Source: Pelagibacteraceae bacterium GOM-A1 (GTDB lineage Bacteria > Pseudomonadota > Alphaproteobacteria > Pelagibacterales > Pelagibacteraceae). Taken from it: a stretch of 54,946 bases of DNA. Where the stretch lies: contig LHBX01000017.1 in the NCBI GenBank assembly GCA_001704065.1, positions 1 through 54,946 of the forward strand, in the 5' to 3' direction. The notes beneath the pieces were generated by a model. It saw nothing but the letters and a program-made list of their open reading frames with translations, was not told the DNA's origin and did not search any database. Position numbers and translations under genes: made by a program. This document shows positions 22,534-34,289 of this stretch, piece after piece. The number at the start of each line of letters is the position of its first letter. Position 1 is the first letter of the stretch.

Positions 22534-22755
22534 CTATTTAGTAATTTTTTCCACTAATTTATTAACCAACGGTGCAACAAAAGTTGTTGCAACTAATGCA
22601 ACTGGCAAACTAATAGACCAAGCTTTGAAAAATCTCTTGTAATAAAATTCATCATAACCTGTATTTATAAATGTAATAATTAGGGTCATTAACAAACTCA
22701 TTCCTAAACCCATAAAAAAAACGAAAAGAATTTTAGAAAATTTTTTTGGAAACAT
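22534..22755 (-). CDS. Small DUF2798-type membrane protein
   Basis: This 73-residue protein has two hydrophobic segments (about residues 9-30 and 47-66). It contains the MGLGMSLLMTLIITFINTG and WSISLPVALVATTFVAPLVN patterns of DUF2798 proteins. Function is unknown. It sits between the MmsB-like and PEP-mutase-family genes; its first base is shared with the stop of the preceding gene. Confidence 0.7.
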   Translation of the reverse strand: MFPKKFSKILFVFFMGLGMSLLMTLIITFINTGYDEFYYKRFFKAWSISLPVALVATTFVAPLVNKLVEKITK

Positions 22756-26481: not shown

Positions 26482-27381
26482 ATGAATTGGATAATTGTAG
26501 CTATTTCTGGGGCTTTTTTTCAAAATCTTAGATCAACTTTACAGAAAAAACTTAATCAAAAGGTATCAACTATTGCATCTACTTATGTAAGATTTGCTTT
26601 TGCATTACCATTTGGGACAATTTTATTTTTTTTGTATTTTCAAGACTTAAATGTAATCCCTGAAATTCTAAGTCAAAAAAAATTTATATTTAACGTATTA
26701 TTAGGTTCAATTTTCCAAATAATTTTTACATTTGTTTTACTTTACTTATTTAGATTTGCTAATTTTGTAGTTGGAACTTCATTAAGTAAGACTGAAGTTA
26801 TTCAGGTTGCGATTTTTGAATATTTGATAATAGGGGACAAATTAAATAAATTTGGAATAACAGGTATTATCGTATCTACAATTGGAGTAATTATACTTTC
26901 GATTAAAGACTTAAGTTTATTTCTAAAAAACTTATTTTCAAAAACAACTTTAATTGGTTTATCCGCAGGGCTATTCTTGGGTTTAAGCGTTGTATATTTT
27001 AGAGCAGCAGCATTAACATTGGAAAATTTTAGTAATAACTTTGAAAAAGCTATAGCAACCCTATTTTTTGGTCTAGTTATACAAACAACATTAGTTACTA
27101 TTTATTTAATTATATTTGAAAAGTCACAGTTTAAAAAATTATATGAAAACAAGTACGAATGTTTGACAGCAGGATTAGCTGGATTTCTCGCAACATTATC
27201 TTGGTTTTATGCTTTTACGTTAATACAGTCTTCATTTGTTAGAGCTATCGGCCAAATAGAATTATTATTTAGCTATGTGTCTTCAAAGTATATGTTTAAA
27301 GAAAAAGTCAAAATTACAGAAATTTTAGGGATAATTATATTTGTAGTAGGTGTACTAATTTTACTACTTAATAAAAGCTAA
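26482..27381 (+). CDS. EamA/DMT-superfamily transporter
   Basis: This 299-residue protein has ten hydrophobic segments arranged as two repeats of five, the EamA architecture. The N terminus (MNWIIVAISGAFFQNLRSTLQKKLNQK) retains the family Asn-Leu-Arg pattern, and the C-terminal half repeats it near residue 160 (LSAGLFLGLSVVYFRAAAL). DMT transporters of this type export or import metabolites such as amino acids; the substrate is unknown. It converges with the SMR pair and overlaps the last SMR gene by four bases. Confidence 0.83.
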   Translation: MNWIIVAISGAFFQNLRSTLQKKLNQKVSTIASTYVRFAFALPFGTILFFLYFQDLNVIPEILSQKKFIFNVLLGSIFQIIFTFVLLYLFRFANFVVGTSLSKTEVIQVAIFEYLIIGDKLNKFGITGIIVSTIGVIILSIKDLSLFLKNLFSKTTLIGLSAGLFLGLSVVYFRAAALTLENFSNNFEKAIATLFFGLVIQTTLVTIYLIIFEKSQFKKLYENKYECLTAGLAGFLATLSWFYAFTLIQSSFVRAIGQIELLFSYVSSKYMFKEKVKITEILGIIIFVVGVLILLLNKS

Positions 27382-27713
27382 TTAATTCTTCCAAGATAAT
27401 TAACCATTACAACACCAATAATAATTAAAAAAATCCCAATTAACCCATACATATTTGGTATCTGGTTATATTTAATCATACCGAAGACTAAAATAGCAGC
27501 CACTGTTATCCCACTATAAGTAGCATAAGTAAAACCTACTGGTATCATAGACATTGTTTTTGCAAGTCCATACATAGTTATACACATAAAAGCTATTGAT
27601 AATATCGTTGGAGTTAATTTTGAAAATCCATCTGAAATTTTAGCAAAACTATTTGCAGCAATTCCTGTTGATATAGCTAATACCAAATAAATATAACCAG
27701 ATAATGGTTTCAT
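27378..27713 (-). CDS. SMR-family small membrane protein lacking the catalytic Glu (first paralogue)
   Basis: This 111-residue protein has four membrane segments and the SMR core IPVGFTYATYSG and GVVMVNYLG. Aligned without gaps to EmrE, GYIYLVLAISTGIAANSFAK places Gly17 at the position of EmrE Glu14, the proton- and substrate-binding residue. Lys25 matches EmrE Lys22. EmrE Trp63 is a tyrosine here. It is the last gene of a ten-gene operon and overlaps its SMR neighbour by four bases, as in paired SMR systems. The loss of Glu14 makes a standard proton-coupled cation exporter unlikely. ArnE/ArnF-like lipid flippase subunits are a precedent for EmrE-like proteins without this residue. Confidence 0.82.
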   Translation of the reverse strand: MKPLSGYIYLVLAISTGIAANSFAKISDGFSKLTPTILSIAFMCITMYGLAKTMSMIPVGFTYATYSGITVAAILVFGMIKYNQIPNMYGLIGIFLIIIGVVMVNYLGRIN

Positions 27714-28045
27714 TTATTTGTTCCTAATAAGTTAACTATTAAGACACCCGATATAATTAAAATCAATCCAATTATTGTATAAAAATTTGGTACTTGATTA
27801 AATTTTATAACACCAACAGCAGCTGTTGCAATTATACATAAGCCTGCAAAAGAGGCATATGTTATTCCAACTGGTATACTTTTCATAACTAAAGACAAAG
27901 TATACATGCATCCAACAATTGTTACTGCTGTGATTATACTAGGTATTAATAATGTAAAACCTTGAGCACTTTTAGCAAAACTGTTAGATGCTGTTCCAAG
28001 AATTACTGCGATTAATAAAATTATATAAGCAGTTATATTATTCAT
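27710..28045 (-). CDS. SMR-family small membrane protein lacking the catalytic Glu (second paralogue)
   Basis: I take the ATG giving MNNITAYIILLIAVILGTAS (111 residues, the same length as its partner). An earlier ATG in the frame would add 19 residues with no membrane character and overlap the isomerase gene deeply. Again Gly17 occupies the EmrE Glu14 position, followed by ASNSFAKSAQGFT, and the Trp63 position is Phe. The shared G-x3-N-S-F-A-K motif in both proteins shows that the change is conserved, not random decay. Together they likely form a heterodimer. It overlaps the isomerase gene by eight bases. Confidence 0.8.
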   Translation of the reverse strand: MNNITAYIILLIAVILGTASNSFAKSAQGFTLLIPSIITAVTIVGCMYTLSLVMKSIPVGITYASFAGLCIIATAAVGVIKFNQVPNFYTIIGLILIISGVLIVNLLGTNK

Positions 28046-28634
28046 TTGCCTTCGACCATTTGATTGCATCTTCCATTCTATCATCTCCCCAGAATATTTC
28101 ATTTTTTACAACAAATGACGGACTTCCAAATATTTTGTTTTTTCTAGCTTTTTCTGTATTTGATAAATAAATATTATTTATTTCCTCAGAGCTTGCCTCT
28201 GAAACAATCTTTTCTTTATCTAAGCTTAGTTTTTCGCAGATTTCACTCAAGTTGGGTTCAACAGCAGGCTCTTTTCCTTCTTGAAACCATCGTTTATACG
28301 TAAGCTGAACGTAATCTACACCCCAGTTATTTTTTAAACCTAATATTGCAATTTTATTAGCTAAATCAAATTCTGTTAAAGGGTAAGGGACTGGTGTTTT
28401 GGCAAAAAATCCATAATTTTTTGCTCGTCTTTCTATGTCCCTCCACATGTAATCTACTTTATTTTTTTTTTCTTTAGGAAAGGGAACATTGTTCATTTCT
28501 TTCATTATTGCTCTCACACTAAAAGGAGTCCAGCTAAACTTAATTTGATGTTGTTTTTCTGCTTCTAGTGCTCGAGTAACGGAAAGATAAGTATAAGTAC
28601 TTCCGATAGAAAAATAGAAATCTATGTTGTTCAC
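28038..28634 (-). CDS. DsbA-like 2-hydroxychromene-2-carboxylate isomerase-family protein
   Basis: This 198-residue protein has the thioredoxin/GST-kappa fold of HCCA isomerases: IDFYFSIGSTYTYLSVTRA at the N terminus with the serine that replaces the redox cysteine, FSWTPFSVRAIMKEMNN, WRDIERRAKNYG near residue 65, and FGSPSFVVKNEIFWGDDRM at the C terminus. Members isomerise aromatic catabolites using glutathione, or act as DsbA-like oxidoreductases. The lack of a CxxC favours the glutathione type. It begins directly after the NTF2-like gene, inside the ten-gene operon. Confidence 0.85.
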   Translation of the reverse strand: MNNIDFYFSIGSTYTYLSVTRALEAEKQHQIKFSWTPFSVRAIMKEMNNVPFPKEKKNKVDYMWRDIERRAKNYGFFAKTPVPYPLTEFDLANKIAILGLKNNWGVDYVQLTYKRWFQEGKEPAVEPNLSEICEKLSLDKEKIVSEASSEEINNIYLSNTEKARKNKIFGSPSFVVKNEIFWGDDRMEDAIKWSKANE

Positions 28635-28955
28635 TTATTTTGGCATTGGTGTTGCGCCAGTTTCTAAACTAATCATTTTACCATCTTTGTATTTGTAGAC
28701 TGCCATAACTGCTTCTACATTACCATCATCAAATGTTACGAACGCATGGTGAACACCAACTTCATCATTTTCATAAACAATTCTAGTTTTATCTTGCTTG
28801 ATATCACCACTCATTGCCCATTTGATAACATCACCTTTAGTTAAAACACTCCCTGATTTATGCATTGTGAATTTAAAATCATCATGCAAAAGTTCGTTCA
28901 TTGCTGCTTCATCTTTATTTTTAATTGCAGCACTATATTTTTCTAATATTGACAT
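28635..28955 (-). CDS. NTF2/SnoaL-like small protein
   Basis: This 106-residue protein shows the NTF2-like pattern: an N-terminal helix (MSILEKYSAAIKNKDEAAMN), LLHDDFKFTMHKSG, and a beta-sheet region ending FDDGNVEAVMAVYKYKDGKM. The family forms a cone-shaped pocket and includes polyketide cyclases, isomerases and binding proteins. No catalytic residues can be assigned. It is located between a DUF1330-like gene and the isomerase gene; another NTF2-like gene starts the operon. Confidence 0.78.
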   Translation of the reverse strand: MSILEKYSAAIKNKDEAAMNELLHDDFKFTMHKSGSVLTKGDVIKWAMSGDIKQDKTRIVYENDEVGVHHAFVTFDDGNVEAVMAVYKYKDGKMISLETGATPMPK

Positions 28956-28966
28956 TTTTTTCTCCT

Positions 28967-29257
28967 TTATGCTCCTTTAATTATTAATGTATTTGATACT
29001 GTATTATCTAATCTAATTTGTCTGATAGGTTTATATATTTCTGAATTGTACCACTCAAAAACTTTTTCATAGGATGGGAATTTAATTACAACAGTTCTTG
29101 GATATTTCCACTCACCTTCAATAACTTCATTTTCGCCACCTCTTATTATGTATTCGCCGCCAAACATTTGAGCAGTTGGAGGAGCTTTTTCCAAATACTC
29201 TTTGTAATTTTCAGGATTTAGCACATTAATATTTAATATGATATATCCTGAAGGCAT
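28967..29257 (-). CDS. DUF1330-family protein
   Basis: This 96-residue protein has the DUF1330 pattern: YIILNINVLNPENYKEYLEKA, FGGEYIIRGGENEVIEGEW near residue 31, and VVIKFPSYEKVFEWYNSEIY near residue 56. The family adopts a dimeric ferredoxin-like fold. Its biochemical role is not established. It is the third of three consecutive 96-residue genes of this operon. Confidence 0.85.
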   Translation of the reverse strand: MPSGYIILNINVLNPENYKEYLEKAPPTAQMFGGEYIIRGGENEVIEGEWKYPRTVVIKFPSYEKVFEWYNSEIYKPIRQIRLDNTVSNTLIIKGA

Positions 29258-29280
29258 TACAAACCTTATTACAAAAATTA

Positions 29281-29571
29281 TTACATATCTACTTTATTTA
29301 ATTCGTAGACACTGTAACTTTCCATAACTTCTTTCATAACTGGACCTGATACTGGATTACTTCCATCTATGAACGCTTTTAGAGCAGCTTTATTGATCAC
29401 AAAAATTTTAAACATTACTGTTTTTTTGTCAGGTGCAACTGTTCCAATTGTTTTTGATACATTTGCAACTTTCGATCTCTCTGCCATACCAGCATCTGAT
29501 TGCATAAAGCCCATAAACTTTTCTAGCATCCCTTCTTTAAGGTGAGCTACGACTAATGTTTCTGTTTCCAT
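29281..29571 (-). CDS. Small ferredoxin-like-fold candidate, unknown function
   Basis: I do not recognise a named family with confidence. The 96-residue sequence has alternating strand and helix segments: ETLVVAHLKEGMLEKFMGFM, a central GTVAPDKKTVMFKIFVINKA, then a helix ALKAFIDG. This is consistent with a dimeric alpha/beta barrel. By eye it aligns over its central third with the next gene upstream (29599-29889), so the two may be divergent paralogues. No signal peptide or cysteines are present. Confidence 0.65.
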   Translation of the reverse strand: METETLVVAHLKEGMLEKFMGFMQSDAGMAERSKVANVSKTIGTVAPDKKTVMFKIFVINKAALKAFIDGSNPVSGPVMKEVMESYSVYELNKVDM

Positions 29572-29598
29572 AATTTATCCTTTCTTTATATTAATTGT

Positions 29599-29889
29599 TT
29601 ATCCACTAAAATTTTCCATAAAATCTTCATGCATTGGTGTAATCTTTGCTGAATCTAAATCCACACCTGCTTCAGCTCTTGCTGCATGAAGTTCTTTGTC
29701 ATTTTTAAATGCTTCAAAACCTTGCATGGTTGCATACTTAACGATTACAGTAAATTTTGAAGGGTCTTCTTTAGATACACCCGCAAAAATAATAGTAGCA
29801 CCAAATCCTTTAATTTTTTCAGCATTCGCCTTTACCATATTCATCCAAGATGAAAATGATTTTATATTTTCTTCTATTTTTATGATCAT
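29599..29889 (-). CDS. Small DUF3764-like protein, unknown function
   Basis: This 96-residue cytoplasmic protein contains SFSSWMNMVKANAEKIKGFG, then IIFAGVSKEDPSKFTVIVKY near residue 34 and FEAFKNDKELHAARAEAG. The GVSKEDPSK strand-turn is reminiscent of DUF3764 proteins of marine cyanobacteria, an assignment I make from memory with moderate confidence. A ferredoxin-like fold is likely. Function is unknown. It follows the secreted cupin gene by 13 bases. Confidence 0.65.
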   Translation of the reverse strand: MIIKIEENIKSFSSWMNMVKANAEKIKGFGATIIFAGVSKEDPSKFTVIVKYATMQGFEAFKNDKELHAARAEAGVDLDSAKITPMHEDFMENFSG

Positions 29890-29902
29890 TTCTTTTTCCT
29901 TT

Positions 29903-30301
29903 TTATTTTACCGGTGTCATAATTTTCTGTCCTTCGACACCAATTGCAACTACAATCGCTTTAACTGGAACATTTCCAATATTTTTCGACTCGTGTACAA
30001 TTCCAACATCTTCAACAAATGCATCACCAGCTTTGAATACTTGGGTTTTTCCTTCATGAATTAATTCAATTTCACCTTGCTGGATCATAATTAAAACTGG
30101 AAATGAGTGCGTATGAGGAGTTACAGGAGCTCCTACAGGTACAGTAAATTCAAAAGCTGTTATTTTTGCTTTTCCAGTAGGGTATACAATATCATTTCCC
30201 ATTCCTGTTTGACTTGTTGATAGAATTCTCTTTACGTGGCTATCTGCGTAAACATTAGCTGTAAATAAACTTAAAATTAATACTAAAATTGTTTTTTTCA
30301 T
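29903..30301 (-). CDS. Secreted cupin-domain protein
   Basis: This 132-residue protein has a clear signal peptide (KKTILVLILSLFTANVYA, cleavage near residue 19) and one cupin barrel. Metal-binding histidines are visible in VTPHTHSFPVLIMIQQGE (His-x-His near residue 62) and VGIVHES near residue 101. The glutamate usually found four residues after HxH is missing, so a three-histidine metal site is likely. Location should be periplasmic. Role unknown; it might bind or transform a small molecule together with the neighbouring secreted protein. Confidence 0.82.
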   Translation of the reverse strand: MKKTILVLILSLFTANVYADSHVKRILSTSQTGMGNDIVYPTGKAKITAFEFTVPVGAPVTPHTHSFPVLIMIQQGEIELIHEGKTQVFKAGDAFVEDVGIVHESKNIGNVPVKAIVVAIGVEGQKIMTPVK

Positions 30302-30314
30302 TTTTTCCTTTCAG

Positions 30315-30782
30315 TTAGTTCAAATTATAAGTACCAACGATTTGATTGTAAGATTGTACAACTCCATCTTTAGCTGAATCAATTTGCGCATAAGATGTTG
30401 TTCCACCTCCAGAAATATTCTCATATTTCCCTGTTCCACTTACAAACTTCCATCTTAATATTTTTCCCATTACGCCTTCGTAATGTGTTGTTGTAGTACT
30501 ACCATCTTCAAATTTGTTTATACAAATGCCTGTCTCAAAACCTTTTCCTTTAAGTCCAACAATTGATCCAACACAATATGATGAAGATCTGTCACCAAAA
30601 GTTGTTCCCTCAATAGCTTTATTACCAATAGTTCCTTCATATATTATCGAAAAATTGCCTTTATCATCACCTATAACTTTAGAAGTGCCAGAGAAAAAAC
30701 CAGTTTGTTTAATTTGTCCTTGCTCAGCAAAAGCTGTACTCGACATAAATACGAAAATTAAAATAAAATATAATTTTTTCAT
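30315..30782 (-). CDS. Secreted beta-barrel-like protein of unknown function
   Basis: This 155-residue protein has a signal peptide (MKKLYFILIFVFMSSTAFA). The mature part is glycine- and threonine-rich and predicted to be mostly beta strands. It contains GTGKYENISGGGTTSYAQ near residue 115, a pattern seen in allene-oxide-cyclase or dirigent-like barrels, and two cysteines (SSYCVGS, TGICINK). The barrel suggestion is tentative and no function is assigned. It lies six bases downstream of the first gene of the operon and next to the secreted cupin gene. Confidence 0.72.
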   Translation of the reverse strand: MKKLYFILIFVFMSSTAFAEQGQIKQTGFFSGTSKVIGDDKGNFSIIYEGTIGNKAIEGTTFGDRSSSYCVGSIVGLKGKGFETGICINKFEDGSTTTTHYEGVMGKILRWKFVSGTGKYENISGGGTTSYAQIDSAKDGVVQSYNQIVGTYNLN

Positions 30783-30788
30783 AAACTC

Positions 30789-31163
30789 TTACTTCTTAAT
30801 TGCATTGAACATGCTTAGTGTGTCATCAAACGCAATAAATAATGTCAGTTTACCATCATCGCTTACTTCAAAATAATGACCAAAAATAGTATCCATGCCA
30901 TCTGCCTTAGCAGTTGCTTTAACAAACACTTTATTCCCCTCACTAATCATCATATCAGGGGTTACTGAAAAATTACTCCAAAGATTTGGAACTTGCATCA
31001 TGGTTTTCATATATGCCTCTTTGCCTTTATGAGTTCCTGACATTGGATGCTTATCCCCAGGATAAATCCAAGTGATATCATCATGTACCATTTCCATAAA
31101 TCCCTCCATATCTCCTTTGCCAAAAAGTTCATATCCTTTTTTAACTACTTCTTTTGCGTCCAT
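30789..31163 (-). CDS. NTF2/SnoaL-like protein (first gene of the ten-gene operon)
   Basis: This 124-residue protein has the SnoaL/NTF2 pattern: VVKKGYELFGKGDMEGFMEM, VHDDITWIYPGDKHPMSGTHK near residue 26, KEAYMKTMMQ, and GHYFEVSDDGKLT near residue 94. Such proteins include ketosteroid-isomerase-like enzymes and ligand binders. It is the promoter-proximal gene of the operon, after an 82-base gap that separates it from cysK. It is not obviously a duplicate of the 106-residue NTF2-like gene further down. Confidence 0.82.
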   Translation of the reverse strand: MDAKEVVKKGYELFGKGDMEGFMEMVHDDITWIYPGDKHPMSGTHKGKEAYMKTMMQVPNLWSNFSVTPDMMISEGNKVFVKATAKADGMDTIFGHYFEVSDDGKLTLFIAFDDTLSMFNAIKK

Positions 31164-31245: not shown

Positions 31246-32247
31246 TTATATCCAATCGGGATAAGGTAAACCTTTTTCAATTAAAAAAGGTTTATTAAAC
31301 ATCTTTGAGTTGTATCTGTCTGATTTGTCGCAAAGAATAGTGACAATAGTTTTTCCTGGTCCTAATTTTTTACCCAATCTTATTGCGCCTGCAATATTTA
31401 CTCCACAACTTGTTCCAAGACTTAAACCTTCATTTTTGATTAAATCATATAGTATTGGCAAAGACTCTTTATCTTCAATTGAAAAGGCTCCATCTATTTT
31501 TGCTTCTGCAAAATTAGCAGTTACTCTGCTGGATCCAATGCCTTCAGTTATTGATCCACCTTCAGCTTTTAACTCACCGTTTTCAATGTGATTGTAAAGA
31601 GAGGATCCCTTTGGATCTGATAGATAAATTTTTATATCTTTATTTTTCTCTTTTAAAAAACTACTTACTCCACCAATTGTTCCCCCAGTTCCAGAAGAAC
31701 ATACAAATCCATCAACTTTACCTTCAGTTTGTTCCCATATCTCAGGACCCGTTGTATTATAGTGACCTTTTGAGTTTGCTGTATTATCAAATTGATTTGC
31801 CCAAACAACTCCGTGATTATTTGAACTTTTTAGGTCTTCAGCCATTCTAGCAGCAACTTTAACAAAGTTATTTTCATCTTTATAAGGTTTTGGTGGAACT
31901 AATTTTAAATCTGCACCAATATTTCTTAATGTATCTTTTTTTTCTTGAGTTTGATTATCATTCATTACAATAATCGTTTTGTAACCAAGTGAATTTCCAA
32001 TAAGGCATAAACCAATGCCAGTGTTTCCTGCAGTTCCTTCTACAATTATTCCACCTTTAGATATTAATTTTTTTTGTTCAGCATCCCTTATTAAAGCAAG
32101 TGCTGCTCTGTCTTTTACAGATCCTCCTGGATTTAAATATTCGGCTTTACCATAAATGTTACAGCCAGTTATTTCAGATGCAGCTTTCAGTTTTATTAAA
32201 GGAGTATTTCCAATTGATTGGATAAAATCATCCTTGTAATTTTTCAT
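31246..32247 (-). CDS. cysK: Cysteine synthase A (O-acetylserine sulfhydrylase)
   Basis: This 333-residue PLP enzyme combines O-acetylserine with sulfide to give cysteine. It has IGNTPLIKLKAASE, NPGGSVKDRAALALI with the PLP lysine near residue 45, GTAGNTGIG near residue 71, the phosphate loop SSGTGGTIGGVS near residue 179, and SLGTSCGVN near residue 271. The C-terminal extension ending GLPYPDWI is usual in alphaproteobacterial forms. Its ATG shares a base with the cysE stop, so the two are coupled and should feed one another. Confidence 0.93.
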   Translation of the reverse strand: MKNYKDDFIQSIGNTPLIKLKAASEITGCNIYGKAEYLNPGGSVKDRAALALIRDAEQKKLISKGGIIVEGTAGNTGIGLCLIGNSLGYKTIIVMNDNQTQEKKDTLRNIGADLKLVPPKPYKDENNFVKVAARMAEDLKSSNNHGVVWANQFDNTANSKGHYNTTGPEIWEQTEGKVDGFVCSSGTGGTIGGVSSFLKEKNKDIKIYLSDPKGSSLYNHIENGELKAEGGSITEGIGSSRVTANFAEAKIDGAFSIEDKESLPILYDLIKNEGLSLGTSCGVNIAGAIRLGKKLGPGKTIVTILCDKSDRYNSKMFNKPFLIEKGLPYPDWI

Positions 32248-32822
32248 TATTCTTTTTCCTCATTGCCATTTGTAACAGCATAAGGTTTAAATTCTTCAGT
32301 TGCTGTTCCAACATTCTTAGCAGGTATTCCTACCATAACAGCATTTTCAGGAACATTTTTTGTTACAACTGCATTAGCACCAATTCTTGCATTTTTCCCT
32401 ACAACTACAGGCCCCAAAATTTGTGCCCCTGAACCAACAACAACATTATCATGAAGAGTAGGGTGTCTTTTAATTTCTCTTTGATCATTGGAATTTATGC
32501 TTGGAGATATTCCACCTAAAGTAACCATATGATAAATTGTTACGTTATCTGCAATGTCAGATGTTTCACCTATAACGACGCCCATACCGTGATCAATAAA
32601 TAAATTTTTACCTATCTTAGCTCTTGGATGAATTTCAATACCAGTTAAAAATCTTGAAAATTGAGAAATTATTCTTGCGATAAGATCGAATTTTGCAGTA
32701 GCAAAAAAATTTGCAATTCTGTGAAAAAATACAGCCTTAACGCCAGGGTACGTTAATATTACACTTAACTTAGATCTTGCCGCTGGATCCCTATCAATAA
32801 TTGATTGCAAATAGCCATTCAT
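32247..32822 (-). CDS. cysE: Serine O-acetyltransferase (short EpsC/CysE type)
   Basis: This 191-residue acetyltransferase has a short N-terminal helical part ([21 protein letters not shown]) and a left-handed beta-helix of hexapeptide repeats: [20 protein letters not shown] near residue 82 with the catalytic histidine, [16 protein letters not shown], and [26 protein letters not shown]. It makes O-acetylserine from serine and acetyl-CoA for cysK. The short form lacks most of the N-terminal domain of enteric CysE. It is the middle gene of a cysteine/sulfide module. Confidence 0.93.
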
Positions 32823-32859: not shown

Positions 32860-33555
32860 TTAATTAATATTGTCTAAAGTAAGCCCTTTTACATTAGCTG
32901 GCACTGCGACATCCATCATTTTTGGATTTGCAAGATTTAGATTATTCATTATATCCGCGTATTCTTCCTTTGAACTTACTTTTAATCTTGGATTATTATT
33001 TTTTTCATTTTCAATAGTGGAAAATTTCTTGCCATTATAATCATGAGCTGGAAATACGAGAGTTTTTTCGGGTAATTTTAATAATTTATTAAATATAGAA
33101 TCATAAGCATCGTAAGCATTACCATTTTGAAAATCTGTTCTACCACTTCCATTTATTAAAAGTGTATCTCCAGTAAAAACTCTATCATTCATCAAAAAAC
33201 TATAAGAGCAGTCAGTATGACCAGGAGTATAAATTGCTTGAAGTTCAACTTCTTCAACTTTAATTTTTTCACCATCTTTAATTCTTAGATCTATCACTTC
33301 TGATTTAGATTTTTCTCCCATAACTCTTATACAGTTTGTTCTTTTATTTAATTCATTTAATGCTGAGATGTGATCAGCATGAATGTGAGTATCAATTACT
33401 TTTACAAGTTTAAGATCTAAATTATTTAATATAGTTGAATACTCATCAGAATGTTCAATGACTGGATCAATTATTAATGCTTCTCTACCTTCACCACTTG
33501 CAATTATATAAGTGTATGTAGAAGATTTTTGATCGAAAAGTTGTTCAAATATCAT
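32860..33555 (-). CDS. ETHE1-like persulfide dioxygenase (metallo-beta-lactamase fold)
   Basis: This 231-residue protein has THIHADHISALNELNKR near residue 56, YTPGHTDCSYSF near residue 109, FTGDTLLINGSGRTDFQNG near residue 131 and FPAHDYNGK near residue 167. The GSGRTDFQ segment separates ETHE1-type persulfide dioxygenases from glyoxalase II. It oxidises glutathione persulfide to sulfite with a mononuclear iron. Its position ahead of cysE and cysK implies a role in sulfide or persulfide balance. It is divergent from a peroxiredoxin gene. Confidence 0.9.
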   Translation of the reverse strand: MIFEQLFDQKSSTYTYIIASGEGREALIIDPVIEHSDEYSTILNNLDLKLVKVIDTHIHADHISALNELNKRTNCIRVMGEKSKSEVIDLRIKDGEKIKVEEVELQAIYTPGHTDCSYSFLMNDRVFTGDTLLINGSGRTDFQNGNAYDAYDSIFNKLLKLPEKTLVFPAHDYNGKKFSTIENEKNNNPRLKVSSKEEYADIMNNLNLANPKMMDVAVPANVKGLTLDNIN

Positions 33556-33577
33556 AAATACTTAACTTTATAAAAGT

Positions 33578-33606
33578 TTGCTTAGTAAAACAATCTTTCA
33601 TATAAT
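33578..33606 (+). promoter_or_regulatory. Sigma-70-type promoter of the peroxiredoxin gene
   Basis: TTGCTT (33578-33583) and a perfect TATAAT (33601-33606) are 17 bases apart. They lie 24 bases before the peroxiredoxin ATG, leaving a short leader with the strong AAGGAGGAGA ribosome-binding site. The -35 is a weak match; the spacing and -10 are ideal. Confidence 0.55.
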
Positions 33607-33629
33607 ATTTTTTTTATAAGGAGGAGACA

Positions 33630-34289
33630 ATGTTAAAAATAAATAGTATGTGTCCTGATTTTCAAGCTAAAACAACTGAAGGAGATATTTCTTTTCACGA
33701 ATGGTTAGGTGATAGTTGGGGAGTTATTTTTTCACACCCTAAAGATTTTACACCAGTTTGTACTACAGAACTTGGTGCTTTAGGATTAATGAAAGATGAA
33801 TTCGATAAAAGAAATGTCAAAGTAATTGGTTTAAGCGTTGATGGGGTAGAGGATCATAAAAAATGGCTAGATGATATTAAAGATGTATCTGGTACAAAAC
33901 CAAATTATCCAATTATTGCTGATGAAGATTTAAAAGTAGCAAAATTGTTTAATATGTTGGAAGCAGATGCTGGAACAACCTCAATGGGTAGAACTGCAGT
34001 TGATAATGAAACTGTAAGAACTATTTTTGTAATCAGACCTGATAAGAGAATTGGATTATATCTTACATATCCTATGGCAACTGGAAGAAACTTTTTAGAG
34101 ATTTTGCGAGCAATAGACTCTATGCAGCTAACAGCTAAACATAAAGTAGCTACTCCTGCTAATTGGAAAAAGGGAGAGGATGTTGTTATTTTGCCAGCGA
34201 TTAAAGATGATGAAGCTAAAAAAATATATCCAGATGGATGGGAAACTGTAAAACCTTATCTAAGAAAGGTACCAGATCCTTCTAAGTAA
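33630..34289 (+). CDS. 1-Cys peroxiredoxin (Prx6 type)
   Basis: This 219-residue thioredoxin-fold peroxidase has the peroxidatic site SHPKDFTPVCTTELG with Cys44. No C-terminal resolving cysteine is present. The long C-terminal part (TPANWKKGEDVVILPAI, then YPDGWETVKPYLR) is typical of Prx6. It removes hydrogen peroxide or organic peroxides in the cytoplasm. A strong AAGGAGG ribosome-binding site and good promoter suggest high expression. It is divergent from the persulfide dioxygenase. Confidence 0.95.
   Translation: MLKINSMCPDFQAKTTEGDISFHEWLGDSWGVIFSHPKDFTPVCTTELGALGLMKDEFDKRNVKVIGLSVDGVEDHKKWLDDIKDVSGTKPNYPIIADEDLKVAKLFNMLEADAGTTSMGRTAVDNETVRTIFVIRPDKRIGLYLTYPMATGRNFLEILRAIDSMQLTAKHKVATPANWKKGEDVVILPAIKDDEAKKIYPDGWETVKPYLRKVPDPSK

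Follow-up and report, generated by a model that had tools for sequence, protein, structure and literature searches.

We analysed a stretch of 54,946 nucleotides (nt) from Pelagibacteraceae bacterium GOM-A1 (assembly GCA_001704065.1, contig LHBX01000017.1), hereafter the window, which carries an array of ten very small genes, g1 to g10, on its minus strand. An earlier note on this DNA had described the array as a packed operon of mostly ligand-pocket proteins ending in an unusual small multidrug resistance (SMR) pair, and had suggested that its products jointly handle one small molecule. The presence of ten minus-strand open reading frames spanning 31163-27378 was confirmed. In gene order, the gaps from g1 to g8 were 6, 13, 13, 27, 23, 11 and 0 nt, g8 and g9 overlapped by 8 nt (g9 starting at the ATG at 28045), and g9 and g10 overlapped by 4 nt, so the packing was as had been described, with no gap above 27 nt. 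Eight of the ten proteins, all but g2 and g5, matched a Pfam family over its cut-off. The array and the two genes that anchor it upstream are as follows, with protein lengths in amino acids (aa).

32247-32822, minus strand: cysE-like hexapeptide acyltransferase, upstream anchor (Hexapep match; recurs beside cysteine synthase)
31246-32247, minus strand: cysteine synthase (PALP), upstream anchor of the island (flank scan)
30789-31163, minus strand: g1, NTF2/SnoaL-like, 124 aa, first slot (SnoaL_2, 48.3 bits, cut-off 27)
30315-30782, minus strand: g2, signal-peptide protein, predicted allene-oxide-cyclase/dirigent-type barrel, 155 aa (AlphaFold2 model)
29903-30301, minus strand: g3, signal-peptide cupin, 132 aa (Cupin_2, 46 bits, cut-off 27.2)
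29599-29889, minus strand: g4, DUF3764, 96 aa (PF12594, 27.5 bits, cut-off 24)
29281-29571, minus strand: g5, predicted dimeric alpha-beta barrel fold, no named family, 96 aa (AlphaFold2, Foldseek and VIA)
28967-29257, minus strand: g6, DUF1330, 96 aa (101.3 bits, cut-off 23)
28635-28955, minus strand: g7, NTF2-like (DUF4440), 106 aa, core gene (30.7 bits, cut-off 25.2)
28038-28634, minus strand: g8, kappa-class glutathione S-transferase-like/2-hydroxychromene-2-carboxylate isomerase-like, GTG start, 198 aa (DSBA, 93.7 bits, cut-off 25.6)
27710-28045, minus strand: g9, SMR-like subunit 1 with Gly14, Asn18 and Phe63 in EmrE numbering (PF00893, 56.4 bits, cut-off 23.7, scored on the longer frame 27710-28102)
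27378-27713, minus strand: g10, SMR-like subunit 2 with Gly14, Asn18 and Tyr63 in EmrE numbering (PF00893, 68 bits, cut-off 23.7)

When the 61 genes of the window, listed by hand, were shuffled with strand ignored, a run of 10 genes of at most 200 aa (a threshold set post hoc) arose in 2 of 100000 shuffles. A promoter scan returned 42 sites against 39.2 expected; promoters and terminators were at chance level.

A variable island downstream of cysteine synthase

The array was compared with its counterparts in related genomes. The flanking cysteine synthase was found at E ≤ 1e-100 in 91 of 121 genomes of the genus, and in 19 of the 19 that were at least 90% complete; a search of 147 genomes of the family with g5 gave a match in 39. 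Neighbourhoods were fetched via the flank gene, via g5 (38 stretches) and via g7 (80 Pelagibacteraceae loci). From 170 annotated loci, 123 contained a full cysteine synthase and 116 of these ran to a recognised downstream flank (7 did not reach it and were dropped); merging of identical islands left 110 that were unique at the DNA level. Genes were called with a home-made codon-score caller, and families, those beyond the ten of the array bearing the prefix c, were built by BLAST single linkage and hidden Markov models (HMMs). Because the families rest on these two procedures, g4, g7 and c6 each lump sub-families; a short g4 type, for example, was 14-21% identical to the g4 of the window.

This comparison revealed that, in Pelagibacter, the locus immediately downstream of cysE-cysteine synthase is a combinatorial island and not a fixed operon. 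The 110 unique islands fell into 68 gene arrangements. Their 1049 genes had a median length of 110 aa, with 981 of 160 aa or less and 1009 co-directional, and the 895 spacers had a median of 13 nt (786 of them 50 nt or shorter). The island was usually closed by g7 and one or two SMR-like genes, and the upstream slots drew on about 20 families of tiny proteins that included dimeric alpha-beta barrels, NTF2 proteins, cupins, allene-oxide-cyclase/dirigent barrels and small membrane proteins. SMR-like genes were present in 106 of the 110 islands, g7 in 104 and g5 in 89, the last two counts being inflated because the loci were partly chosen by these genes. The other families followed with g6 in 79, g8 in 70, c8 in 55, c6 in 52, g1 in 47, g4 in 45, c7 in 44, g2 in 37, c11 and g3 in 35 each, c40 in 24, c12 in 20 and c23 in 16. 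Selection by the flank gene alone gave 39 complete loci, from 40 of the 91 flank-gene genomes that were hand-picked for contig room; they comprised 32 arrangements and contained SMR-like genes in 36, g7 in 35, g6 in 28 and g5 in 26 cases.

The proposal of a fixed ten-gene set acting on one small molecule is not borne out by these counts, among them those of g1, g2, g3 and g8. The broader idea of a module was supported; the families do cluster at cysE-cysteine synthase in nearly all of the islands and regroup elsewhere, whereas 68 forms in 110 islands speak against a single set devoted to one molecule.

Gene content turned over faster than gene order. Of the 1247 pair orders counted over the 68 distinct arrangements, 1188 followed the majority, compared with 62% on average and at most 65% in 200 shuffles, and 91 of 115 family pairs were never reversed; families duplicated within an island were left out of this analysis. 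Content, by comparison, differed in 94 of 111 pairs of islands with 97-99% identity between their cysteine synthase genes; where this identity was 99% or more, it differed in 5 of 43 pairs.

In the few junctions examined, slots were lost by deletion. When the window was aligned with its close relatives, locus L049 lacked g2, and its g3 began with the start and the first signal-peptide residues of g2, so at least one slot loss passed through signal-peptide-coding sequence. A decayed g2 remnant consisting of the signal peptide and a stub lay between g1 and g3 in L070, L071 and L072, representing a visible stage of slot loss, and a different second g2-like N-terminus, judged by resemblance, was present on g3 in two other sequences. 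Locus L073 lacked both g1 and g2, and L051 had four extra genes between g2 and g3. Close to their gene starts, c11 and g3, and likewise c12 and g4, had exact sequences of 22 nt or longer in common in several islands; these are possibly further recombination joints.

Selection was estimated from single pairs of sequences, as point values without errors. The ratio of nonsynonymous to synonymous substitution rates (dN/dS) was 0.04-0.16 in divergent pairs of g1 to g4 and g7 to g10. For g5 and g6, synonymous sites were saturated in the divergent pairs, and close pairs gave values of 0.07 (g5) and 0.05 (g6). Two further close pairs were uninformative, one of g9 (dN/dS 0.615 at a dS of 0.026) and one of g2 (dS near 0).

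Outside the genus, and also outside the family, subsets of the island families were found regrouped at unlinked loci. The array c6-g6-g5-c11-c7-c41-c12 occurred in other contexts in a second genus of the same family (L031, L035, L036 and L038-L043, with L067 similar), and L064 contained c7-c154-g5-c40-g7-c8-SMR away from cysteine synthase. Other alphaproteobacterial families contained g5-c40-g7 and g5-c40-c23-g7 (L140 and L141; family f31), while L147 held g7-g6-g4 and L144 held g7-g4. A looser array of small genes in another alphaproteobacterial family (L148, 8615-13989), broken by an opposite-strand gene, contained one member each of SnoaL_2, ABM and YdhR over cut-off, a second member of the g1 family by HMM only, and DUF3764 and Dirigent matches below cut-off.

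The SMR-like closing pair

The description of the terminal pair as unusual SMR proteins was borne out. Both g9 and g10 matched PF00893, the alignment with EmrE ran nearly end to end (E 8.2e-20), and the alignment from the PDB placed a Gly on Glu14 of EmrE. Position 14 was Gly and position 18 was Asn, in place of the Glu14 and Thr18 of EmrE, in all 152 distinct full-length proteins of this SMR-like family from the fetched loci, an earlier set having shown Gly14 in 75 of 75. One locus (L109) read Val at position 14 in a shifted alignment; the same genome fetched again (L149) had Gly14 and is counted among the 152. These proteins kept Lys22, Tyr60, Gly90 and Gly97, and Trp63 of EmrE was replaced by Phe in 76 and by Tyr in 76. 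At least two SMR genes were adjacent in 79 of the 110 islands, and a single one was present in 27.

The pair resembles the proton-coupled SMR transporters (EmrE, QAC, Gdx and paired types) in its four-helix PF00893 family and its paired genes, but both Glu14 and Trp63 are missing. As the defining Glu14 is absent, we do not class the pair with the proton-coupled transporters. The paired SMR systems EbrAB and MdtIJ are likewise encoded by adjacent genes, and the island pair differs from them by Gly14, Asn18 and Phe/Tyr63. Loss of E14 has been described for YvaD (Bay and Turner 2009, PMC2716321), a partner protein on which, according to the available passages of the source, there is very little selective pressure; in contrast, both partners of the island pair lack E14 and both are conserved.

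Gly14-type proteins were sought outside the genus; among 289 genomes of the class, an island-level score (E ~1e-47 or better) was reached only by the two Pelagibacter-genus genomes. The next SMR matches had E values of 1.5e-23 and weaker. Of 20 loci taken from the 40 matching genomes, two were from Pelagibacter, and the 18 from other alphaproteobacteria were canonical with Glu14 and Trp63 in 18 of 18. A third SMR protein of the same genome as the window (contig C59; L231, 1492-1824) also has the canonical Glu14 and Trp63, and its gene adjoins one that by eye resembles an acyl-CoA/AMP synthetase. At the downstream end of L081, L093, L097 and L098, an SMR-like gene of the Gly14 family was inverted relative to the array.

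Families and folds of the slot proteins

The folds named in the earlier note (NTF2-like, cupin, a DsbA-like protein of glutathione type and two SMR proteins) agreed with the Pfam and PDB matches, the three 96-residue proteins were present as stated, and the statement that most are ligand-pocket folds holds for those that could be assigned from Pfam or from models. The signal peptides of g2 and g3 were assigned by eye. In g3, the residues HTH and one later His were invariant in 18 distinct sequences. AlphaFold2 models were built for g2 and g5, neither of which has a Pfam family over cut-off, on alignments of their relatives.

A PDB sequence search with g2 gave one weak match (E 0.34). Its model, with a mean predicted local distance difference test score (pLDDT) of 87.8, was compared with known structures and was closest to 2q03 (VIA Z 15.4, root mean square deviation (rmsd) 2.2, 122 aligned residues), followed by the cyclase PloI4 (Z 14.3, rmsd 3.8, 130 aligned) and the pyocyanin demethylase 5k21 (Z 13.4, rmsd 2.6, 117 aligned). 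The model thus predicts that g2 is an eight-stranded barrel of the allene-oxide-cyclase/dirigent/DUF3224 type. The likeness of g2 to these barrels and to pyocyanin demethylase is one of modelled fold, with about 10% sequence identity, and g2 is probably exported.

For g5, which had no PDB sequence match, the model (pLDDT 95.6) had a ferredoxin-like beta-alpha-beta-beta-alpha-beta topology, and the monomer is predicted to have the fold of the dimeric alpha-beta barrel superfamily. Foldseek gave a probability of 1.00 to SO0527, LsrG, NIPSNAP and ABM proteins, with YgiN and SnoaB also among the structure matches. The best VIA rows were 9lmn (Z 9.2, rmsd 3.0, 88 aligned) and 3gz7 (Z 9.0, rmsd 2.7, 87 aligned), and 20 of 1000 chains had a Z of at least 8. 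The fold is common to g5 and the ABM, NIPSNAP and LsrG proteins, but g5 matched no Pfam sequence family over cut-off. The top structure rows score alike and some of them are unrelated ferredoxin-like proteins, so no enzyme can be assigned to g5.

Both PDB matches of g8 at E ≤ 0.01 were named as (possible) 2-hydroxychromene-2-carboxylate isomerases, with an E value of 2.1e-13 for 2imd. A Ser of g8 aligned with the Ser of 2imd, which we take to be glutathione-activating as in the solved relatives, and was invariant in 27 distinct g8 sequences. The label "DsbA-like, glutathione-type" therefore suits g8 as judged by alignment. In contrast to the 2-hydroxychromene-2-carboxylate isomerase/kappa-class enzymes, no such catabolic pathway was recognised among the flanking genes scanned. 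The remaining slot families included c8 (DUF2798), c12 (GYD) and, in some strains, c30 (cupredoxin) and c45 (TPR); names below cut-off were Cupin_2 for c40, SCO4226-like for c11 and ABM for c41, and c7 and c23 had no meaningful Pfam match. Common ancestry of the small barrel proteins was considered, and profile comparison gave no demonstration of it.

Interpretation of the island

The explanation that we prefer, with a probability of about 0.42, is that the island is an interchangeable kit of pocket proteins for different small organic molecules, with an SMR-derived exit that is not proton-coupled in the usual way. Each slot protein would bind or convert its own class of small organic molecules, most of them hydrophobic or reactive. 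The folds, together with the neighbours (cysteine synthesis, an MBL-fold hydrolase and a peroxiredoxin), suggest quinones, oxidised lipids and other products of phytoplankton or algae as candidate classes. Thiol chemistry is suggested by the glutathione-type isomerase g8 and by the cysteine genes, and the isomerase may be common to the slot proteins. Without the proton-coupling carboxylate, the SMR-like pair would let a product that is neutral or anionic cross the membrane through facilitated transport or flipping and not by standard cation/proton exchange. Strains would differ in their slots because local chemistry differs, and the island is likely a candidate site of local chemical adaptation. 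A bolder form of this explanation is doubtful and offered tentatively: the island may be a modular rack of ordered, interchangeable pocket proteins feeding one conserved SMR-derived pair without the Glu14 proton switch, a new class of uncoupled or lipid-like transporter, and kept polymorphic in populations of Pelagibacter as a repertoire for chemical niches. If true, it would be the bacterial counterpart of a detoxification gene family in the form of a haplotype-shuffled cassette.

Several points weigh against the kit of pocket proteins. Resemblance in fold does not establish the function of the slot proteins, and the fold of g5 is a common one, with unrelated ribosomal S6-type chains reaching VIA Z values of 7.1-7.7 beside the ABM rows. 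Profile comparison of g5 with g4, g6 and c11 gave a best probability of 36.6%, out of register, and hence no convincing kinship. No single gene is obligatory, as SMR-like genes are missing from 4 and g7 from 6 of the 110 islands. Single occurrence in unrelated contexts, which the earlier note had named as counting against a module, was observed in part, as g5 was solitary in L046, L047, L048 and L053. Part of the agreement in order reflects inheritance, since the shuffles take no account of common descent. The absence of Glu14 in both partners could also mean that transport has been lost; decay of the pair is nevertheless disfavoured by the invariant Gly and Asn and by the low dN/dS in divergent pairs.

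Among the alternatives, an island for oxidative stress or thiol repair stands up best, although we regard it as improbable. The slot proteins and the isomerase would then guard against peroxides and photosensitised damage by using the cysteine and redox neighbours, and the CysE-like protein, cysteine synthase, MBL-fold hydrolase and AhpC/1-Cys peroxiredoxin beside the array are consistent with this, as are the cupredoxin (c30) and TPR (c45) slots of some strains. The available text of a paper on cercosporin-resistance genes (PMC4608573) contains the term NTF2-like 19 times. However, the slots are ligand-pocket folds and not peroxidases, and they vary beside cysteine genes that are fixed. All four matches to RNA families near the array were under their gathering scores, and a protein regulator was not searched for.

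A neutral recombination hotspot, that is, a site downstream of cysteine synthase that tolerates the accumulation and loss of short genes without function, would explain the fast change of content and the visible deletion scars, and several slot families have no Pfam match. With slow loss, such a hotspot would account for part of the pattern, a further point to be set against the kit of pocket proteins. A purely neutral hotspot is nonetheless unlikely, because the dN/dS point estimates were low wherever measurable, the slots were filled by the same few families and not by random genes, their order was near-fixed, and the same families re-assembled at unlinked loci.

A single dedicated pathway, in which the ten genes synthesise or degrade one small molecule in successive steps and the SMR pair exports it, is quite unlikely. 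The genes are tightly packed, and 13 of the 116 complete loci, including a few cases of one genome fetched twice, have the exact ten-gene set of the window. However, the 68 arrangements in 110 islands show most genes to be dispensable, which makes a ten-step pathway hard to sustain, and the genome, which is 95.4% complete, has a single ketoacyl-synthase match. A polyketide cluster was rejected as a candidate: that match lies on another contig and none was found in the nine flanking genes scanned, a search that covered no other synthase types.

The least credible alternative is a mobile cassette, viral or defence array (integron-like, phage-borne or made of immunity genes), since the cassette-like gain and loss of single, small, interchangeable genes in one orientation, which it shares with integron arrays, is outweighed by the median spacer of 13 nt, which leaves no room for attC sites, by the lack of a repeat family common to the window spacers (all 27 nt or less), by PADLOC matches for 0 of 10 proteins at E ≤ 0.001, by phage-family matches for only the two SMR proteins of the ten (QacE and two unknown profiles), and by a pattern-limited scan of viral contigs that found no relative of g5. 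An attC site is larger than such spacers.

Pelagibacter cells are among the most numerous in the sea and have a stripped-down genome. That about ten tiny-protein genes are re-dealt between close relatives is unexpected in so reduced a genome. The hypervariable regions HVR1-4 and polymorphic gene indels of SAR11 have been described, and it was speculated that variable indels under purifying selection are balanced polymorphisms (Wilhelm et al. 2007, PMC2217521, in its available passages). The island is similar in showing presence/absence variation under purifying selection, but its variation is concentrated in one ordered array. The HVR1-4 gene lists in those passages comprise surface polysaccharide, pilin, secretion and transport genes and unknowns and name none of the island gene types, although the annotations are coarse and the comparison was one of lists, without mapping of HTCC1062. 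Being compact and countable, the island lends itself to a test of the 2007 suggestion on gene presence/absence in SAR11, and its SMR-like family allows the loss of the "essential" SMR glutamate to be studied with a conserved natural replacement. Literature searches, with most subscription journals outside their scope, gave nothing joining SAR11 or Pelagibacter with DUF1330, or Pelagibacter with "antibiotic biosynthesis monooxygenase"; four papers joined Pelagibacter with "small multidrug resistance", and one that joined Pelagibacter with cupin and polyketide cyclase was on ectoine synthase. None of the literature matches listed described the island locus, which is no proof that it is undescribed.

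Further neighbours of the array in the window lie on both sides. Adjoining cysE and cysteine synthase, an MBL-fold hydrolase and an opposite-strand AhpC/1-Cys peroxiredoxin at 32860-34289 form a redox/thiol neighbourhood. Two further genes lie downstream:

26482-27381, plus strand: EamA family gene, convergent with g10 and overlapping its end by 4 nt (flank gene in 32 of 110 islands)
22534-22713, minus strand: 59-aa member of the DUF2798 family (c8), outside the array and beyond the TRAP gene group (family clustering)

The c8 gene of the window lies about 5 kb past the array, behind the EamA gene and a TRAP/PEP-mutase-like gene group; a different c8 member scored 78.2 bits to DUF2798. As c8 stands beside the SMR genes in many relatives, its position suggests that, in the clade of the window, an insertion of the EamA and TRAP genes separated c8 from the SMR pair.

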